A stretch of DNA of 37,718 bases from Bacteroidia bacterium. Lineage in GTDB: Bacteria; Bacteroidota; Bacteroidia; Cytophagales; JAAEPT01. Below the pieces are notes generated by a model that did not search any database, had not been told where the DNA came from, and worked only from the letters and a program-made list of their open reading frames with translations. The number at the start of each line of letters is the position of its first letter. The first letter of the stretch is position 1. The stretch is from contig JAUIJC010000038.1 in the NCBI GenBank assembly GCA_030431525.1, positions 1-37,718 on the forward strand. Reading direction: 5' to 3'. Below are positions 976 to 11,460 of the stretch, piece after piece. The position numbers and the translations under genes are program-made.

Positions 976-2568
976 TCAATGAATCATCACCTTATAATTT
1001 TTTGTCTGTCCTTGGATTTGCACCTCCAACAAATACATCCCTTCAGGCAAATCTAATTGATAGGAATTGCCAGACATTTTACCCAAATCATACAACAGCT
1101 CACCTTGCATATTTAACAAGCTTATTTTTTCAGCATTTTCACTTCCTAAATCAACATTAAAATGTCCATTACTTGGGTTAGGGTAAACGCTAATTCCTCC
1201 GAATAAACGGTCTTGGATGGAAGTCAACGTAACATTGACACATTCGGATTTGGCGACGCAACCGTTTTCAGTCAATTCTACGGCATAAGTCCCCGAACCA
1301 CTTGGAACAAACGATTGGTTTGTTTCGCCCTCAATCGCACTGTCGTCATTACAATCAACCCACTGATAGCTTGCTTCTGTATTATTTGCCGTCAGTGTTC
1401 CTCCCAAATTTTCAATGGTAATGTCAGAAACGGAATTGATGGTCAAGTCCAAGGTTACGACCGAATCACAACCATTCGCATTCGTCAACGTGAAGGTCGG
1501 CGAAGTGGTGGAAGCTGTGTAGGTCATGCCGTCGATCCATTCATAACTCCCGCAAGCCGTCACCACGTCCGTACCAGAAGTCGCATTGTTGATCGTCAAA
1601 TTCAAGGTCACAATGGAATCACAGCCGTTTTGTGCCCCTCCATAAAGGATGAAATTGGCGGTATTGTTTGAAGCGGTGTACACCTGACCATCTTCCCAAG
1701 TGTAGCTTTCACAAGCGGTGACAACATCCACGCCCTGTGCTGGAGTACACGCACAATCAGTGCTGTAACGGACGTTATTTGCGTTCACAAAATTCTCCCC
1801 CACCCAATTATCTTGGCTCCATTGCGCATCATCGACCTGAATACAAGAAAGGGCAGGCAACTTTGTCAAGTTCAGTTGTTGGAGGTTTTGATTAGCGCCA
1901 TTCGCCAAATTCAATGTTGCCAACTGGTTACAGGTTTTCATTTTTAGCGTACCCAGATTACTCAAAGCGCTCAAATCCAAGGAAGTTATATCACTTGTTT
2001 CCGAAATCTCCAGATAACGCAAAACCGTGTTATTACTCAATTCAACAGGACTTCCCTGTGCTGTGAAAATTAGGGTATCAAGCAATGGAAAAGGAGTCAG
2101 ATCAGTAATTCCCGTTCCTCTTCCGGCATCAAAATACCGTAGCGAAGGAAGGTTGTAAACAGAGTGCTGAAAGTTCGATAATTGGGAATCTTGGACATCT
2201 AAACGCTCCAAACTTGGCAAATCTAAATGAGCCGAAGTTACCCAAGAACTCCAAACATTCAATACCGCCAAATTCTGTTGGTCCAACATTAAAGGCAAAT
2301 CTAAATTCACACCAACAATCGTCAGCTCCTCCAAACCCTCAAACGCTTCAATCCCTGTCAAATCTCGAATTTCATTCTCAAACGAATACACATCCAACAC
2401 TCTCACCTCTTGAACATTTGCACGCGCCACCTCTCCGTCTTGCACATCATCAAAACCCATGTTGATCAAATATTGCTCAAATGCTTGATCAGGAACCCAA
2501 ACAAATTCTTGCGCCTTACATACAAAAGACATGCATACAGCAAACAACAATACAGTAAATTTTTTCAT
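976..2568 (-). CDS. Secreted leucine-rich repeat protein with T9SS sorting domain
   Basis: Predicted 530-aa exported surface protein. The start is placed at MKKFTVLLFAVCMSFVCKAQ, a clear signal peptide, rather than eight codons upstream. Residues ~60-250 carry irregular leucine-rich units (for example LPSLERLDVQDSQLSNF and LSNLGTLKMKTCNQLATLNL). Two ~50-residue repeats follow (~285-390), each with a TAC-SY-W-DG core and ending GCDSxVTLxLTIN, a module common in Bacteroidota adhesins. An Ig-like SYQW segment comes next. The last ~75 residues (from VYPNPSNGHFNV to NYKVMIH) are a type A T9SS C-terminal domain. The role is probably binding to a polymer or a partner cell; the ligand cannot be inferred. 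The gene is convergent with the gene ending at 907, and its 5' flank is shared with the protease remnant. Confidence 0.9.
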   Translation of the reverse strand: MKKFTVLLFAVCMSFVCKAQEFVWVPDQAFEQYLINMGFDDVQDGEVARANVQEVRVLDVYSFENEIRDLTGIEAFEGLEELTIVGVNLDLPLMLDQQNLAVLNVWSSWVTSAHLDLPSLERLDVQDSQLSNFQHSVYNLPSLRYFDAGRGTGITDLTPFPLLDTLIFTAQGSPVELSNNTVLRYLEISETSDITSLDLSALSNLGTLKMKTCNQLATLNLANGANQNLQQLNLTKLPALSCIQVDDAQWSQDNWVGENFVNANNVRYSTDCACTPAQGVDVVTACESYTWEDGQVYTASNNTANFILYGGAQNGCDSIVTLNLTINNATSGTDVVTACGSYEWIDGMTYTASTTSPTFTLTNANGCDSVVTLDLTINSVSDITIENLGGTLTANNTEASYQWVDCNDDSAIEGETNQSFVPSGSGTYAVELTENGCVAKSECVNVTLTSIQDRLFGGISVYPNPSNGHFNVDLGSENAEKISLLNMQGELLYDLGKMSGNSYQLDLPEGMYLLEVQIQGQTKNYKVMIH

Positions 2569-2592: not shown

Positions 2593-2824
2593 AAACCATT
2601 TAATATTGAATGCATAAATACTTTAAAAAAGTAACCCATACCACCCCAATAAAACCCAATTTTATTACACGTTTAAACACTTATAAAAGAAAGAATTTCA
2701 TCTTACTACCAGCAATTAATCACCACAATAAATAAACACAACACACTGACTTATAACAAAAAACAACAACAACTAAACAAATCAAACAACCATGTTTAAC
2801 CACATATACTTCTCTCCATAAAAC
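2593..2824. promoter_or_regulatory. AT-rich divergent intergenic region with a GTTTAAACAC motif
   Basis: This region separates the minus-strand leucine-rich gene from the plus-strand protease remnant. It is very A-rich on the plus strand. GTTTAAACACTTATA at 2671-2685 contains an 8-base palindrome and recurs as GTTTAAACACGTATA at 3301-3315 and, degenerated, as GTTTAACCACATATA at 2794-2808. The motif could be an operator or core promoter shared by these secreted-protein loci; that is inference from recurrence. Confidence 0.4.
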
Positions 2825-3034
2825 ATGGAATCATATCCACTTATGCTTTTCACTGTTGACATTGGCATTATGCCCTCATATTTATTCGCACAGCAACAGG
2901 TGCATGACATGAGTGCACAGTCAGCCGACATTTATGCCTTGGACTCAGAGATGAGCGAATTGAGTAAAGGCATCTGCTTCATCCAAATTAGGATGAATGA
3001 AGGAGTCGCCACCTGAAAGTTGGTAGTGGAATAA
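2825..3034 (+). pseudogene. Remnant of a T9SS-exported protease gene: signal peptide joined to C-terminal tail, with a nonsense codon
   Basis: The first ~30 codons match the start of the 3410 metalloprotease gene: PSYLFAQQQVHDM lines up with PSLLFAQEQGQDL, mostly at codon level. From ~2935 the frame matches the last ~30 codons of the protease genes: KGICFIQIRMNEG lines up with KGIYFIQIRVNEG. At 3014-3016 a TGA replaces the arginine codon of the conserved RKLVVE tail (CGA in the subtilase gene), yet AAG-TTG-GTA-GTG-GAA-TAA still follows in frame to 3034. Everything between, some 1.6 kb or more of coding DNA in a full-length relative, is missing. The downstream hairpin matches the one after the 8735 gene. 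It is best read as a third tandem protease gene that lost its middle by deletion. A short secreted peptide is possible but unlikely. Confidence 0.8.
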
Positions 3035-3051
3035 GCTCATTGCGCTTAAGG

Positions 3052-3090
3052 AAAAAGGGCTGTGTCAAAAAATTGATACAGCCCTTTTTT
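3052..3090 (+). terminator. Intrinsic terminator after the protease remnant
   Basis: A 17-base stem, AAAAAGGGCTGTGTCAA (3052-3068) with TTGATACAGCCCTTTTT (3073-3089), has a 4-base loop and a T-run. The GGCTGTGTCAA/TTGATACAGCC core is the same as in the hairpin after 11404, including the same G-T wobble position. Confidence 0.85.
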
Positions 3091-3409
3091 ACGAATCACC
3101 GCTTCCACCAAAGCACTAAAAGCAAAAGTTATCACATCATTATTCAAAAAAACTACAAAGGTTTAAAATCAAAAAACCATAAATAAATCATGTAACAACA
3201 CTATCGCCAACACAACATAAATACCAACAAAACCATTCTTAAAAAGCAAACAACAGCAACAACTAAACGAAATTACCAGAATAAAAAAATCACAACACAT
3301 GTTTAAACACGTATATTTTTACACATAACGGCATGAATTTAAATAGCCTTTTAGTGTTACCATTCACCAAGCTGAATTATAGTTTATTCAAGACACTAAA
3401 AAGCTTAAT
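3091..3409. promoter_or_regulatory. Long A-rich leader upstream of the metalloprotease gene
   Basis: No gene is visible in these ~320 bases. The plus strand is depleted in G. It shares with the region upstream of the remnant an ACAACTAAAC tract (near 3260 and 2769) and a CATGTTTAA-CAC-TATA motif (3299-3315 and 2791-2808). TATATTTTT at 3312-3320 loosely resembles the Bacteroidetes TAnnTTTG box but lacks the G, so no start site can be assigned. Confidence 0.35.
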
Positions 3410-6400
3410 ATGAAGACATTACTACTATTATGCTATATTTTAATCCCCTCACTTTTATTCGCTCAGGAACAAGGGCAAGACCTTAAAAAATTGACAAACG
3501 GATTCCCCCAAGAGTCCCTTGTACTTCTGCCCACCAGTTCCAGCGATGTTGCTTTTGAGGTGAAGCAAACCAAGGGCGCTCTTCCCGCTTCGCTCCAAGA
3601 AAAATATCCTGAAATACACTCTTATGAGGGCATAAGTGCAGACGGCACATTGAACGCTGTCTTCACCATCACTCCATCAAAAGTATTCGGCCATATCATC
3701 GAAGCGGACGGCATCGTCCGTTTTGATGCGGACTTCACGGACACTCTCTATGAGTTTCACACTGAAAAGGAGACGTTTAAGTCCATTGACAATTATTGTG
3801 ACCATGCCGACCACCAATATGAGGACCACCTCCCTCCTTCTGCCGAAGCTTGGAACATGAGGATTGCCGACAGCGCAGAAGAGGATGTTGAGGAATCTGC
3901 GACTCCCTCTGGCTCCAGCGGTGAAAAGCTTATCACTTTTATAGTTGCCGTCTCTTATTCTGGTGCCGAGGCCGAACGCGCCGGTGTGACCACTAAAGCC
4001 GAGGCCATGGCGGTAATCAACAGCAACATCACGGCCATTAACAAAGCCTTCCGAAACGAACTACAAATCCAGTTTGTCGTCCACCCCAACAACGACCAAA
4101 TCATCTTTTTCGACTCCTCAACAGACCCCTTCGGACTGGGTGGAACAAACACGATGTTGGGCACCCACAACGACTTCCTGAAAACCGCACTTGGCGAGGA
4201 CACCTATGACCTTGGCATTTTGTTGCACCCCGGCGAAGGACTCGGCTGGGCAGGTGGAAGACTGTGCGCTGGCTCCAAAGGACGATGTGCGACAACAAAC
4301 AACGTTGGGCTCCACCGCCATGAGGTGGGCCACATGCTCAGCGGTGCGCATATGTATAGCCGTGACGCCTCCAACGGTATTTCCGCATTGGGAAAAACCA
4401 TGGTAGGAGCCAACTGGTCAGTCGTGCATCCCTACAACTATGACCGCATGCGCGATGTCATTCTGACCCAGCACGCCAACACGGGTTGTGGAGTGGAGAC
4501 GGCAACAGGAAACACCCCTCCTGTGCTCACTTTGGACATTCCAGAAACCATAGCCATTCCTGCCAACACGCCATACGTACTGAGCGGACACGCCACGGAC
4601 ATCGACGGCGATACCTTGACCTATTCGTGGTATCACATGCAAGCAGGAGAAGACGACACAAACAACCTCCTTTTTGCCCATGAACGCCCTTCGGAAACGG
4701 GTAATGTGAGGTACGTTCCCAGCCTCTCTTCCTTGCAAGACAACATCAAGGACCCCTATTCCAAACTGGCCACGGTGAACCGGAAAATCATTGCACGATT
4801 GGTCGTGCGTGACAACCAAAAACCTGTCGGAAGCTATGTGTACAAGGAAATCCAAATGACGACCGACTCCAGCGCTGGTCCTTTCGTGGTCACCTACCCG
4901 AACCAAAAGGAGCTTTTCAGCGGGAACAGCGACATCACCGTCACTTGGGACGTGGCGAACACCGACAACACCATTATCAATGCAAGCAAGGTGGACATCC
5001 TTTTATCTACTGATGGAGGCACTACTTTTTCCACCTTGCTGGCCAACACCCCCAACGACGGGAGTCAAGCAGTCACCCTTCCGAACACGCCAAGCGATTC
5101 CTGCCGAATCAAAGTACAGGCAACTGGAAACGTCTTTTATGACTTCAGTGATGAGCATTTCGAAATCATTGACCAAAGCATTTCCGAATTCCGGTTCCTA
5201 ATGGCGGATTCCGTCCAGTCCGTTTACACCGAAACAAGCTGTTCATTCCCCTTCGGGATGTACTATTTGGGAGGCTACAACAAGACCATTGATGCGAGTA
5301 TCACCGGATTGCCATCAGGGGTCAGCCATACCTTCCCAGCACAGTTCACTGGAGAGGTAAAAGGTGACTTGACACTCTCTGGAATAGGGTCTTTGGCTTT
5401 GGGCCGATACCCCTTCACCATCCAACTGCAGGAACAGGGCTCGGCTGAAATCCATGAATACCAACTCGTATTAGTGAAACGCGATGTGGGTCAAGGCATC
5501 ACTGGGGGCGCGCTGAACCTACAAGAATATGACGCCCACATGACCGCTGACTGGACTGGATTAAACACAGCCGAGTTCACCGTGTCAGCTTGGATAAAGC
5601 CCGACCAAACAACAACTCGTGCAGGCATCATCAATCTGGACAACAACTTTGTGTTGTTGATTGACAACGGACAGCTCAGGTATGCCCACCCAAGTACCAA
5701 TTCCCAAAACTGGAAAACGGTTGATGGTGGAATGGTTAAAGAAGGCGAGTGGAACCACGTGGCGGTTGTAGTTCGTCAAGCCTATGAGGAGCTGTACGTC
5801 AACGGCCAATACGCACGTAGCCAGTACAGCGACCAAAACCCTTTGACCCCGCTTAAGGGAACGTTGGAATTAGGAACGTTTAAGGATAAATGGTACTGGA
5901 AATACACAGGCCTCATTGACGAGGTGCGCATCTACAACGAAGCGAGGTCTGCCGAGCAAATCTGGCAGGAAATCCACCAGACCTCTACCGCCGACGAGCC
6001 AAGCTTGATTGTTTACTACCAATTCAACGAACCTCAGGGGGAACAGCCGTTAGATGTGCGAAGCCGATTTAGAGGAAACCTCATTGATGGGGCTTTTGTG
6101 GAAACCAGTTCCTCCATCCCAACGGCATCCACCACCTACATCAGCCAGCCACAAAGCGACCAGCTCATGGACTTTGGCCCTGCCAATGTCACCATGGAGC
6201 TAAACGCCTTTGACGATTCCCGCACCGTGGCCGTCCACAAATTTGACATCAGCCCAAATACCATGGAAGGCATTTCGCCGACAGCGAACACTTTCCAAGA
6301 GTATTGGGAAATCAACGACTACCCTGATGAGCCCATCTTGGACATCAAAAAACTTGGATTCAAACTCAGCACCGACATCACCACCGAACAGGCCAACAAA

Positions 6401-8611
6401 TTTGTAAACTACAACCTGTATCATCGTGGCCAGACCTCGGATTCCATTTGGACAAAAATTGGAACCGCCTCCAGCGCTGATGCCACGAATGACTTGGTGG
6501 CTTTTGATAATGTCAGCCATACTGGGCAGTTCATCATCGTGGAGGAAACCGCCCCCGTGTTGGGATACGTTCTCATTAAGGATGATTTCGACTGCTTGCC
6601 TGTCCAAAACCAATTGACGGGCTCGACCCTCCAATATGAGCTGGCGGGCTCCAACCTCACTGGCGACCTCACGGTAACTCACAGCAATCCGCTGTTCTCC
6701 TTCTCCCTCACCGAAAACGGAACCTACGAACAACAGCTTACGATTTCCCCACAATCCGAAGTGGTGACAAGAAAGACCTTGTTCATCCGTCTGAATTCTC
6801 CCGATTCTGGTGAGCTACAGGACACCATCACCCTAAGTAGCGCTGGCGCAGACACTGTCCAAATTTTCCTCAAGGCTGAAGTCTTGCGTGAAGCCTCCTG
6901 TAATGCGAACGCCTTTGAGTTCGACGGCTCAGGACAAAAAATCAATATTGAAGACTTGGACTTTGCACCAACCGCCTTCACCGTTGAATTCTGGCTGAAG
7001 CCATATTCCTACGGGAATTACAACCAGATGATAGGCAACAAATGGGGGGAATTCCTATTCCATTTGGACGACGACGGAGCAATCGCTGTAGGCGTGGACG
7101 TGGCCACGCGCTTTTACACGCCTGACAACTTCGTGACTTTGAACCAATGGATGCACGTGGCCTATACCTTCGACAACGGAACGGCCAACTTGTACTTTGA
7201 CGGTCAACTCTATGACACTAAAACAGGCGTAACTATGCCTGAAACTTGGAACTCAAACTTCACCATCGGCACCTCCTCAACATCCAATGCCATGGACGGC
7301 CAAATGGATGAGTTCAGGATTTGGCGCAAAGCACGGACGCAGGCTGAAATCCAAAAGTACATGGGTGAAATCTACCCGCTGAACAATGCCTGTTCGGACT
7401 CCTTGATGGTCTATTACCAGTTCGAAGAAATGACCAATGGCTATGTGGAAAACATCGCTGACCCAAAATTCCAAGGTAGGCTGAACACTACCGTCAATGT
7501 CATTCCATCCACGGTTTCAGTGATATGCGATTCCAACCAAAACCCAACGGTTTCAATCACCACGGACAAAACCGACTACACGATTGGTGATGAGGTCACT
7601 ATTCAGTGGACGGCAAACGACCCCGATGGAACAATCGCTTCCATTGATGTTACCGTGAACGGAACCACCATAGCCACCTCAGGTAATTCTGCTATTTGGA
7701 CTTCTGATACCACTGGCTCAATTGTCATTGCCATCACCGTCACGGATGACAAAGGCGCTACAGCCACCAATCAGACGACAATCAACATCCTTCCAAACCA
7801 AGACCCGATGGTAGCCATCTCCACTGATAAAACCGACTATTCCTTTGGAGAAAACGTCGCCATCAACTGGACCGCGAGCGATTCGGATGGGGCTATCACT
7901 TCCATTGAGATTCAAGTGGACGGTACAACCATTGCCACCTCGGGAAGCGCCACCAGTTGGACGCCCATCAAAACGGGGACAATCATTGTTTCCATCACCG
8001 CCACCGATGACAAGGGTGCTACCGCTTCCCAGCAAAGCTCAATTACGGTGACTGAAGATGCCACAAGCCTGAACGCCGACCAGAGCGACAACGGCACGAT
8101 TTCTTTCTCGGTGACAGGCACGGACCCATCGAATATTTTCTCCATTCAATACTTCATCAAAAATGCTGATGGAGACATCATCGACAGCAAGCGAGTTTTC
8201 AGCCCGAATGACTTGAATTACGACTGGTTCATCAACCACACAGGCAATGTCAGTGTGGAAGCGGTTATCACATTCAACAACTTCAACACCAGCAACACCG
8301 ATGCGCTAAGCATGGCTGTCCAGCGCCCATTGGGCATCGGGGATGAATTGCTCACCACCTTGGACTTTAGCCTGTTCCCGAACCCTGCTTCCGAACAACT
8401 GCATATTCAATACACCTTGGACCGAAATGCCGAAGTGGCCATTGAAGTGTTCAGCATGGACGGCATCAAGGTGAACACCCTAAACAAAGGCTCGCAAAGC
8501 ATCGGCTCCCATACCTTGGACGCAAACATCATGGACTTGAAAAAAGGCATCTATTTCATCCAAATCAGAGTGAACGAAGGCTTTGCCGTTCGCAAGCTCG
8601 TGGTGGAATAA
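3410..8611 (+). CDS. Giant secreted zinc metalloprotease (reprolysin-like) with LamG, Ig-like and T9SS domains
   Basis: A 1733-aa exported protein. The signal peptide (residues 1-18, ending LLFAQ) is followed by a prodomain-like region to ~160 and a metalloprotease domain at ~165-375. The zinc site is HEVGHMLSGAH at 304-314: H304, E305, H308 and H314 fit the zincin pattern HExxHxxGxxH, except that the usual glycine is shifted one place (S311, G312). GKTMVG downstream is the likely Met-turn. Then come Ig/PKD-like modules (~365-590), a LamG domain (~696-850), a second LamG (~1165-1310), two near-identical Ig-like repeats beginning NQNPTVSITTDKTDY and NQDPMVAISTDKTDY (~1378 and ~1464), and a T9SS type A domain from FPNPASEQLH (~1653) to KLVVE. 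It probably degrades extracellular protein while anchored or released at the surface. The final ~350 residues are shared with the next gene. Confidence 0.93.
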   Translation: MKTLLLLCYILIPSLLFAQEQGQDLKKLTNGFPQESLVLLPTSSSDVAFEVKQTKGALPASLQEKYPEIHSYEGISADGTLNAVFTITPSKVFGHIIEADGIVRFDADFTDTLYEFHTEKETFKSIDNYCDHADHQYEDHLPPSAEAWNMRIADSAEEDVEESATPSGSSGEKLITFIVAVSYSGAEAERAGVTTKAEAMAVINSNITAINKAFRNELQIQFVVHPNNDQIIFFDSSTDPFGLGGTNTMLGTHNDFLKTALGEDTYDLGILLHPGEGLGWAGGRLCAGSKGRCATTNNVGLHRHEVGHMLSGAHMYSRDASNGISALGKTMVGANWSVVHPYNYDRMRDVILTQHANTGCGVETATGNTPPVLTLDIPETIAIPANTPYVLSGHATDIDGDTLTYSWYHMQAGEDDTNNLLFAHERPSETGNVRYVPSLSSLQDNIKDPYSKLATVNRKIIARLVVRDNQKPVGSYVYKEIQMTTDSSAGPFVVTYPNQKELFSGNSDITVTWDVANTDNTIINASKVDILLSTDGGTTFSTLLANTPNDGSQAVTLPNTPSDSCRIKVQATGNVFYDFSDEHFEIIDQSISEFRFLMADSVQSVYTETSCSFPFGMYYLGGYNKTIDASITGLPSGVSHTFPAQFTGEVKGDLTLSGIGSLALGRYPFTIQLQEQGSAEIHEYQLVLVKRDVGQGITGGALNLQEYDAHMTADWTGLNTAEFTVSAWIKPDQTTTRAGIINLDNNFVLLIDNGQLRYAHPSTNSQNWKTVDGGMVKEGEWNHVAVVVRQAYEELYVNGQYARSQYSDQNPLTPLKGTLELGTFKDKWYWKYTGLIDEVRIYNEARSAEQIWQEIHQTSTADEPSLIVYYQFNEPQGEQPLDVRSRFRGNLIDGAFVETSSSIPTASTTYISQPQSDQLMDFGPANVTMELNAFDDSRTVAVHKFDISPNTMEGISPTANTFQEYWEINDYPDEPILDIKKLGFKLSTDITTEQANKFVNYNLYHRGQTSDSIWTKIGTASSADATNDLVAFDNVSHTGQFIIVEETAPVLGYVLIKDDFDCLPVQNQLTGSTLQYELAGSNLTGDLTVTHSNPLFSFSLTENGTYEQQLTISPQSEVVTRKTLFIRLNSPDSGELQDTITLSSAGADTVQIFLKAEVLREASCNANAFEFDGSGQKINIEDLDFAPTAFTVEFWLKPYSYGNYNQMIGNKWGEFLFHLDDDGAIAVGVDVATRFYTPDNFVTLNQWMHVAYTFDNGTANLYFDGQLYDTKTGVTMPETWNSNFTIGTSSTSNAMDGQMDEFRIWRKARTQAEIQKYMGEIYPLNNACSDSLMVYYQFEEMTNGYVENIADPKFQGRLNTTVNVIPSTVSVICDSNQNPTVSITTDKTDYTIGDEVTIQWTANDPDGTIASIDVTVNGTTIATSGNSAIWTSDTTGSIVIAITVTDDKGATATNQTTINILPNQDPMVAISTDKTDYSFGENVAINWTASDSDGAITSIEIQVDGTTIATSGSATSWTPIKTGTIIVSITATDDKGATASQQSSITVTEDATSLNADQSDNGTISFSVTGTDPSNIFSIQYFIKNADGDIIDSKRVFSPNDLNYDWFINHTGNVSVEAVITFNNFNTSNTDALSMAVQRPLGIGDELLTTLDFSLFPNPASEQLHIQYTLDRNAEVAIEVFSMDGIKVNTLNKGSQSIGSHTLDANIMDLKKGIYFIQIRVNEGFAVRKLVVE

Positions 8612-8734: not shown

Positions 8735-11404
8735 ATGAAGAGACTTCTACCAACCCTGCTTTTCACTGCTGTGCTGATAAGCTCTACGCTTTTTGCACAC
8801 GCTCAAAACGCCTACAATGTCATTGCAAGCGTTCCCGACAAGAATGTTCCCGTGTACCTTACGGACACCGTCACCTTGACCTTTGACGCCTTGCCCGCTT
8901 CAGATTTCAAGATTAGATTAAATTCCAGCCCGTCTCCCCTGCCGAGCGAGGCATCAACGGTCTATAACTCCACTGACGCTTCCGTCTGTGCTGTGGATCG
9001 CACAAACAACACCTTGACCTTGTATGTGGGGAATTTCGTGAAACAAACCATTCTGGTATATTCCTCCAGCCTCCTGCGCCACAGCAGGGAATACTACCTG
9101 ACCATTGACTTCAAGGAGGTGGGTTACACCTTCCGAACCGAGGACCTTGGAGGCGTCAAGGAGCGCCGTTCGGCCAATATGATGGATGAGGATTACAACA
9201 TCACCGACGGGTATAGCCTGAGCGATTATCACAAAACGACGATTGAAGACGGTTACACACGACATCATTTCGACAAGGACAATTTCTACCAAACCTATGG
9301 CGCAAAGGGCAATGGGGTGAAGCTGGCCATTGTGGACGCCACCATCATTCCTGAATCTGACGTGGGCAACTCTGTCGTTTATTCAACCTTTGACATCCCA
9401 AGCTCGAAACTCAGCCCTGACCTGAACCGTGGAGACCATTATTACAACCACGGCATCCAGATGGCACGTTACGCATTGGACTATGCCCCACGCTCGGACA
9501 TCTATGCTTTTGACAAGTTTATGAGTGGAGGAAATGCTTTCTTTTACCTCGCCCATGTCCATGACATTGATATCTGGTCTCAGTCTGGCTCATTTATTAG
9601 GGTGGATAACAACCAAGTTTCGGCCATGAAGGAGTTGATTGACGATGGCATGGTCGTATCCAGAAGCCTCGGAAATAACTCAGCGGAGCTGAATACCCTT
9701 GATGATTATACCCACGAGGAAATCTTCTTCCCCTATTTCTATGATTTGACGGGCTCAAAAGGGGCCTTTGTCAGCCTGCAGGCGGTGCGTCCATCTCAGG
9801 GAGATTACAAAACCTTGAGAGCGAAAGCTGGCCTCTCAAATCCTTACACGCTCTGTGTTGTGGAAACTGGCAATGGGGCCACATCGCAGGCGACAGCCAC
9901 ATTCTCGGGAATTGTTTCCTTGCTTATGGAAATTAACAGGGAAAGGAATTCACAGTTCACCAATCAGGAATTGGTGGAATGCCTTTTCCAAACGGCAACG
10001 GACATTGGCGCCACTGGCGTGGATTCGGTATTTGGCTATGGCTTGGTGAATGTGGAAGATGCCTCCGACATGGTTTACAACGGCATCCACCCTACGTTCA
10101 AGCTCTATGAGGAAATCTCCTCCAACCATAGGCAGACCGTCAAAAATGCGTTTGACCTCAATCATTTGGACACCCTCCAAAACAGGCTTTTCACCAATGT
10201 TTCTTTCGACACCACCGAAGCCTACAAATTCAGGTATCCAACGGACCCGACCACACTCATCAAACGACGCCAAGTGTTGCTGAATGTTGATGGACAGTAC
10301 AGCATGTATGCTTTCTTGGACAGCATCGCCTTGGCTGTTGGGCTCTCCACCGACAAATCAGATTACTCGCTCGGCAATGATGTCACCATCAACTGGACGA
10401 CTACAAACCCTGATAGAAACATTGCTTCGATTGATGTGAAAGTGGACGGAACAACGGTTGCCACTTCTGGAAATTCCTTCAAGTGGACCTCTGATAAAAA
10501 GGGAGAAATCACCCTTTCCATTACGGTAACTGATATTGATGGAGCAACAGTAAAAGACGAAATGACCATCAATATTGGCGATGCCGTCAACCAAGACCCT
10601 ACGGTTTCCATCTCTACCGATAAAACTGACTACACACTCGGCGATGAGGTTTCTATCATTTGGGATGCTAACGACACGGACGGAAACATCGCTTCCATTG
10701 ATGTGAAAATTGATGGCAAAACCCTGACTACAGCTGGCAATTCCACCAAATGGAAATCCGACAAAACAGGGACAGTCACCATCTCCATTACCGTCACCGA
10801 CAACGAGGGCGCTACCGCTACCGACCAAGTCATTGTTGACATCGTTGAACCCGTCAATGCCCTTTTAACGGCCCAAAACGCTAACAGTGAGGTCAGCCTT
10901 TCTATTTCTGGAATTGACCCAAATCAGGTTGCCTCCGTGGGGTACGTGATTAAGGACGATAATGGAATAGTCATCGATAGCGAGGAGGTGTATGGCGCTG
11001 AAAGCTTGAATTATGTGTGGGCCATCAACTACACAGGAAATATTACTGTGGAAGCAACTGTTACTTTTAACGATAACTCAAGCATCACATCCAACTCAGT
11101 CAAGCTGGCTGTCCAGCGTCCATTGGGCATCGGGGATGAATTGCTTACCGCCTTGGACCTGACATTATTCCCGAATCCAGCCTCTGAACATCTGAATATT
11201 CAATACACCTTGGACAGAAATGCCGAAATAGCCATCGAAGTGTTCAGCATGGACGGGGTAAAAGTGGCGGACTTGTCCAATGGCACCCAGTCGCAAGGTG
11301 ACCATGAGTTAAACGCTCCGATTTCGGATTTAAACAAAGGCGTCTACTTCATCCAAATAAAAGTGAATGACAGCTTTGCCATCCGAAAATTGGTGGTGGA
11401 ATAA
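8735..11404 (+). CDS. Secreted subtilisin-like serine protease (S8) with Ig-like repeats and T9SS domain
   Basis: Predicted 889-aa exported subtilase. The start at MKRLLPTLLFTAVLISSTLFAHAQ is chosen because an in-frame ATG at 8666 lies directly after the terminator stem and would precede the signal peptide by 23 residues. The catalytic domain spans ~190-450, with the triad visible as D201 (KLAIVDATI), H239 (YYNHGIQMARYA) and S384 (GNGATSQATATFSGIVSLL). The motifs deviate from the usual DTG, HGTH and GTSMA forms, but all three residues are kept. A beta-rich module (~450-530) follows, then two Ig-like repeats (from ~533 and ~622) and a region ending in FPNPASEHLNIQY and KLVVE, the T9SS sorting domain. 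The last ~350 residues are highly similar to the end of the metalloprotease next door, partly at DNA level. Confidence 0.92.
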   Translation: MKRLLPTLLFTAVLISSTLFAHAQNAYNVIASVPDKNVPVYLTDTVTLTFDALPASDFKIRLNSSPSPLPSEASTVYNSTDASVCAVDRTNNTLTLYVGNFVKQTILVYSSSLLRHSREYYLTIDFKEVGYTFRTEDLGGVKERRSANMMDEDYNITDGYSLSDYHKTTIEDGYTRHHFDKDNFYQTYGAKGNGVKLAIVDATIIPESDVGNSVVYSTFDIPSSKLSPDLNRGDHYYNHGIQMARYALDYAPRSDIYAFDKFMSGGNAFFYLAHVHDIDIWSQSGSFIRVDNNQVSAMKELIDDGMVVSRSLGNNSAELNTLDDYTHEEIFFPYFYDLTGSKGAFVSLQAVRPSQGDYKTLRAKAGLSNPYTLCVVETGNGATSQATATFSGIVSLLMEINRERNSQFTNQELVECLFQTATDIGATGVDSVFGYGLVNVEDASDMVYNGIHPTFKLYEEISSNHRQTVKNAFDLNHLDTLQNRLFTNVSFDTTEAYKFRYPTDPTTLIKRRQVLLNVDGQYSMYAFLDSIALAVGLSTDKSDYSLGNDVTINWTTTNPDRNIASIDVKVDGTTVATSGNSFKWTSDKKGEITLSITVTDIDGATVKDEMTINIGDAVNQDPTVSISTDKTDYTLGDEVSIIWDANDTDGNIASIDVKIDGKTLTTAGNSTKWKSDKTGTVTISITVTDNEGATATDQVIVDIVEPVNALLTAQNANSEVSLSISGIDPNQVASVGYVIKDDNGIVIDSEEVYGAESLNYVWAINYTGNITVEATVTFNDNSSITSNSVKLAVQRPLGIGDELLTALDLTLFPNPASEHLNIQYTLDRNAEIAIEVFSMDGVKVADLSNGTQSQGDHELNAPISDLNKGVYFIQIKVNDSFAIRKLVVE

Positions 11405-11421
11405 GCTTGCTTAGCTAAAGC

Positions 11422-11460
11422 ATGAAGAGGCTGTGTCAATCGTTGATACAGCCTCTTCAT
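11422..11460 (+). terminator. Long hairpin after the subtilase gene
   Basis: An 18-base stem, ATGAAGAGGCTGTGTCAA (11422-11439) with 11443-11460, has one G-T pair and a 3-base loop. No T-run follows, so it may act as an RNA stabiliser or a weak terminator. The core is shared with the hairpin at 3052-3090. Confidence 0.7.

Follow-up and report, generated by a model that had tools for sequence, protein, structure and literature searches.

A probable T9SS cargo pseudogene beside two large related genes in a Bacteroidia genome

A gene remnant adjoins two large related genes

Upstream of two large related genes lies a stretch of about 0.4 kb which resembles both of them and encodes almost nothing of either, and this raises the question of what gene it once was and how it was reduced to its present state. 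The initial annotation had described it as a fossil protease gene. The window analysed here is the whole stretch of 37,718 nucleotides, i.e. contig C64 of a 4.24-Mb genome, and all whole-genome searches cover those 4.24 Mb. The main features of the locus, with domains assigned by Pfam/NCBIfam, are as follows:

976-2565, minus strand: LRR protein gene upstream of the remnant, with a C-terminal T9SS type A sorting domain
2721-3089, plus strand: the gene remnant
3410-8611, plus strand: intact paralogue (3410 gene), a reprolysin-like M12B metalloprotease with LamG-like domains, PKD-like repeats and a T9SS type A sorting domain
8735-11404, plus strand: intact paralogue (8735 gene), with a weak S8 subtilase match, PKD-like repeats and a T9SS type A sorting domain

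Together with a gene located on contig C58, the 3410 and 8735 genes are the three intact paralogues used for comparison. The open reading frame of the remnant (2825-3016) encodes 63 amino acids, while the paralogues encode 889 to 1733, and it differs from them by a large deletion and an in-frame stop. Region 2721-3089 is thus very likely a pseudogene of a T9SS cargo protein. It is composed of a flank and a signal-peptide end of the 3410 type and of a sorting-domain end and a hairpin of the 8735 type, and its homology runs collinearly from the promoter flank to the terminator; of the region that should connect the signal peptide to the second half of the sorting domain, almost nothing is left. 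The T9SS type A sorting domain itself is abundant in this genome (125 PF18962 matches at E <= 0.01), and therefore the organism exports many proteins by this route.

The 5' flank and the signal-peptide end resemble those of the 3410 gene

Upstream of the deletion, three blocks of the remnant have counterparts, in the same order, around the start of the 3410 gene:

2721-2782, plus strand: distal 5' flank block, whose homologue upstream of the 3410 gene is 3211-3273
2786-2836, plus strand: proximal 5' flank block, pairing with 3292-3344 and containing the word CATGTTTAACCACATATA at 2791-2808
2858-2908, plus strand: signal-peptide-coding remnant, reading ..IMPSYLFAQQQVHD and pairing with 3415-3481, with a gap of about 13 nt relative to the 3410 gene
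3298-3315, plus strand: counterpart of the flank word upstream of the 3410 gene, found by a 0-mismatch genome search

The distal block scored 50 against its counterpart (shuffle maximum 31-46) and 62.8 in a comparison with 1000 double shuffles, none of which reached this score (maximum 58.2). The proximal block scored 40.0, a value reached by one of 1000 shuffles, and the signal-peptide block scored 48.5, with a maximum of 31.6 in 1000 shuffles (z 9). At the signal-peptide end, 29 of the 38 positions printed in the alignment of 2870-2907 with 3443-3480 are identical. Because signal peptides resemble one another, we also scored the three blocks against 45 gene starts from this genome, almost all of them belonging to T9SS cargo genes. 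The 3410 gene ranked first for each block, scoring 50, 32 and 38 for the distal, proximal and signal-peptide block, respectively, while the best of the 43 other genes scored 25, 21 and 27. The earlier suggestion that the signal-peptide end matches the 3410 gene was thus confirmed, and identity upstream of position 2900 exceeds the chance level, extending into two flank blocks that had not been part of that suggestion.

The 18-base word CAYGTTTAAMCACNTATA has just three exact occurrences in the whole genome, at 2668, 2791 and 3298, and thus the similarity of the flanks is peculiar to this locus and does not reflect a genome-wide promoter; a scan for sigma-70-type promoters gave no excess over shuffles. 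The copy at 2668-2685 lies 123 bases upstream of the one at 2791, and its surroundings have no significant homology to the 3410 flank. A further candidate block, 2640-2720, was rejected as being at chance level (217 of 1000 shuffles reached its score). Homology between the 5' flanks of the remnant and the 8735 gene was likewise not significant (75 of 1000).

Although its end is recognizable, the signal peptide of the remnant has decayed in the start-codon region and the hydrophobic core. The frame opening at 2825 begins with MESYPLM, has a net charge of -1, carries Asp in the hydrophobic stretch and has no positive n-region, unlike 10 intact reference signal peptides, whose charge is +1 or +2.

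The 3' part is half a sorting domain interrupted by a stop codon

The downstream part of the remnant contains:

2917-3034, plus strand: remains of a T9SS type A sorting domain, from its C-terminal half, with a single TGA interrupting the frame
3014-3016, plus strand: in-frame TGA, at a codon that specifies Arg in the three intact paralogues (3410, 8735 and C58; codon alignment)
3017-3034, plus strand: KLVVE-TAA tail beyond the TGA, which precedes the true stop by five codons (sequence and alignment)
3052-3089, plus strand: intrinsic-terminator-like hairpin, with a homologue after the 8735 gene at about 11424-11458

In both neighbouring genes, the tail pairs with the final 34-42 codons. In the whole-genome search, 2934-3034 matched 8511-8611 of the 3410 gene with 73% identity (E 4.8e-10), and 2966-3086, which includes the hairpin, matched 11336-11457 of the 8735 gene with 76% identity (E 6.3e-15); the rest of the 4.24-Mb genome gave no strong match. 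A tail end common to both neighbours, as first proposed, is therefore well founded, and this DNA homology to the sorting domains of intact cargo genes marks the remnant as derived from a T9SS type A cargo gene.

The frame reads HDMSAQSADIYALDSEMSELSKGICFIQIRMNEGVAT*KLVVE*, where the 3410 gene has LNKGSQSIGSHTLDANIMDLKKGIYFIQIRVNEGFAVRKLVVE*. The signal-peptide end and the sorting-domain remnant share one reading frame, and the TGA is the sole frame-breaking change in the tail, so that a short product may conceivably have worked until recently. The change from an arginine codon to TGA, with KLVVE and TAA following in frame, was correctly recognized at the outset. At the profile level, 2957-3034 corresponds to positions 44-71 of TIGR04183 (E 0.029), i.e. 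the last 28 profile positions, KLVVE end included, yet its scores are below the curated cut-offs of both TIGR04183 (14.4 bits, cut-off 23) and PF18962, Por_Secre_tail (12.8, cut-off 27). In comparison to a complete domain, the first half is missing and the conserved Tyr and Arg are lost. As the TGA precedes KLVVE, the C-terminal motif is left untranslated and the domain is probably not a functional one. Efficient secretion is reported to depend on the C-terminal residues of type A sorting domains, among them conserved lysines in motif E (PMC10202324, PMC4804311). The remnant most likely makes no working product, since the frame opening at 2825 has neither a usable signal peptide nor a catalytic or folded domain, and it ends before the last residues of the T9SS export signal.

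The exact form of the hairpin is shared with the 8735 gene

The hairpin at 3052-3089 has a folding energy of -26.5 kcal/mol (z -7.2), and together with its flank it scored 44.4 against the 8735 counterpart, with a shuffle maximum of 35.2. As related hairpins are common both in this genome and in other genomes of the order, we rejected the hairpin alone as a proof of paralogy; it is informative only in its exact form and together with the adjoining tail. This exact form, GGCTGTGTCA..TGATACAGCC, is found in the genome only at 3058 and 11429, which bears out the likeness to the 8735 hairpin noticed at first. An Rfam scan gave no match near gathering scores.

Another hairpin of this genome, the 29-base GGCTGTCTCAAATCTACCCTGAGACAGCC, is present in seven identical copies on either strand (C36:93449, C49:91, C55:56077, C58:46294, C62:41589, C68:65 and C69:21514). 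For two of the seven, a contig start is no more than about 120 bases away, and perhaps this hairpin is the end of a repeated mobile element.

Divergence of the tail and the origin of the remnant

One might assume that a remnant combining the 5' end of one neighbour with the 3' end of the other arose by a deletion between the two, and a deletion either between or within tandem genes had indeed been envisaged. In such a fusion, a 3410-like 5' part would have been joined to an 8735-like 3' part by recombination at short repeats, which concerns how the pseudogene was formed and not whether it is one. The idea accounts for the 5' blocks matching only the 3410 gene and the hairpin matching only the 8735 gene, and along the tail the match does move from 3410-like to 8735-like, although this mosaic signal is weak (Mann-Whitney p 0.031). 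However, the identity of the tail over 26 codons is 72% with either neighbour, while the neighbours are 77% identical to each other, and 8 of the 30 diagnostic sites match neither, whereas a recent join of living genes would leave near-identity to the parents. We thus regard a fusion as possible but rather unlikely. An old join of the ancestors of both genes is indistinguishable from the derivation from a third paralogue, and older recombination or gene conversion in the tail is possible. The tail distances fit an independent third lineage, and of the two kinds of deletion originally envisaged, the one within a third paralogue is favoured. The codon-level match was said to be best with the 8735 gene; AAT, TTG and TAAGC are indeed nearer to it, but the tail protein is nearer to the 3410 gene (75% vs 58% identity).

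One could also argue that this is a real mini-gene for a secreted short peptide that carries a signal peptide and a T9SS export signal, and that the TGA truncated it recently or tolerably. The signal-peptide end and the tail are indeed in one frame, the tail retains a third-position bias, the hairpin is kept, and in P. gingivalis GFP is exported when it carries no more than the final 22 residues of a type A sorting domain (PMC4804311, PMC10202324). Against these points stand the decayed start of the signal peptide described above, the loss of a Tyr and an Arg that are invariant in the paralogues, and the removal of the final five residues by the TGA, so that such a gene seems improbable. Even less credible is a 5' resemblance without homology, brought about by common signal-peptide codons and an AT/AC-rich intergenic composition. 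It is true that this genome has many signal peptides with an LFAQ-type end, that the flank is compositionally biased and that the farthest block is at chance level. Nevertheless, the three collinear blocks outscore their dinucleotide-shuffled pairs (0, 1 and 0 per 1000 reach the scores) as well as all 43 other gene starts, and the flank word is private to the locus, which refutes this explanation for 2721-2908.

The most likely origin, judged from the sequence, is thus a third, diverged paralogue that suffered an internal deletion. The junction at which the middle of the gene is missing can be placed as follows:

2906-2933, plus strand: junction zone, between the end of the signal-peptide homology and the sorting-domain residues AQSADIYALD

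The 5' homology stops at 2908 and local 3' DNA homology to the 3410 gene begins at 2934, with a weak extension at the protein level back to about 2917. Differences between the tail and the 3410 gene are distributed over codon positions as 10/5/16, and this concentration at third positions indicates that most of the divergence predates the loss of function. Changes specific to the remnant affect two residues that do not vary among the three intact paralogues (Y to C and R to stop), and second codon positions carry three such changes, in comparison to 0, 0 and 2 in the others, these being very small counts over 27 codons. A plausible course of events would begin with duplication and recombination of modular genes, giving rise to a third paralogue which diverged while still functional; an internal deletion would then have removed its middle, and decay of the start region as well as the nonsense change may have come after the deletion. 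The proposal that the array once had more members is supported in the form of one more T9SS cargo gene.

We looked for an orthologous locus in one other family member and in 291 genomes of the order, and found none. The upstream LRR protein, used as a synteny anchor, gave domain-level matches only and no orthologous locus, and two genome_contigs scans for proteins related to 8735 and 3410 yielded no match.

The lost gene probably encoded a T9SS cargo, not demonstrably a protease

The label of a fossil protease gene can be retained only in part. A fossil gene with an internal deletion does lie beside two related genes, and its supposedly metalloprotease-like 5' end does share the flank and the signal-peptide end of the 3410 gene; no catalytic-domain sequence (M12B or S8) follows them in the remnant, where Pfam found no protease match. 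The KLVVE tail is the end of a T9SS type A sorting domain, of which there are about 125 in the genome, one of them on a GH18 chitinase, and thus a protease identity is unproven. Sharing such a tail is a marker of the export route and not of the enzyme class. The lost middle could have come from any cargo, and the evidence supports a fossil T9SS cargo gene.

In terms of known systems, the remnant has in common with the 3410 gene the 5' flank, the signal-peptide end and the sorting-domain tail, but lacks its catalytic, LamG-like and PKD-like regions and has a different terminator. With the 8735 gene it shares the sorting-domain tail, the sequence after the stop and the hairpin, though not the 5' flank. 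With its ends kept, its middle lost and a nonsense change, it does not differ distinctively from bacterial pseudogenes that arose when duplicated modular genes lost internal segments. This is ordinary gene decay, and the remnant is of little importance beyond annotation; it illustrates that T9SS cargo gene families with common C-terminal modules undergo a turnover in which genes are duplicated, internally deleted and left to decay. It is conceivable, but highly doubtful, that transcription of the remnant still runs from the duplicated promoter to the intact hairpin, and that the resulting short RNA, or a mini T9SS decoy peptide, affects how the neighbouring cargo genes are expressed or their products exported.

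One delivery module is found on three enzyme classes

The C-terminal module of the 3410 gene (about 355 amino acids) is 55% identical to that of the GH18 chitinase on contig C58 and 56% identical to that of the 8735 gene. This delivery module, consisting of PKD-like repeats, a linker and the T9SS sorting domain, is thus carried by a metalloprotease (window 7540-8608), a subtilase-like protein (window 10334-11401) and a chitinase (L054 on contig C58, 6367-7467). In the two proteases, the first halves of the sorting domain (about 8340-8520 vs 11130-11310) are 78-82% identical at the DNA level, while the rest of the module is mostly about 57-70% identical, a contrast which hints at local gene conversion.

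Finally, another T9SS sorting domain interrupted by one in-frame TAA is present at C18:61813-61998, and it is a second candidate for a cargo pseudogene in this genome.
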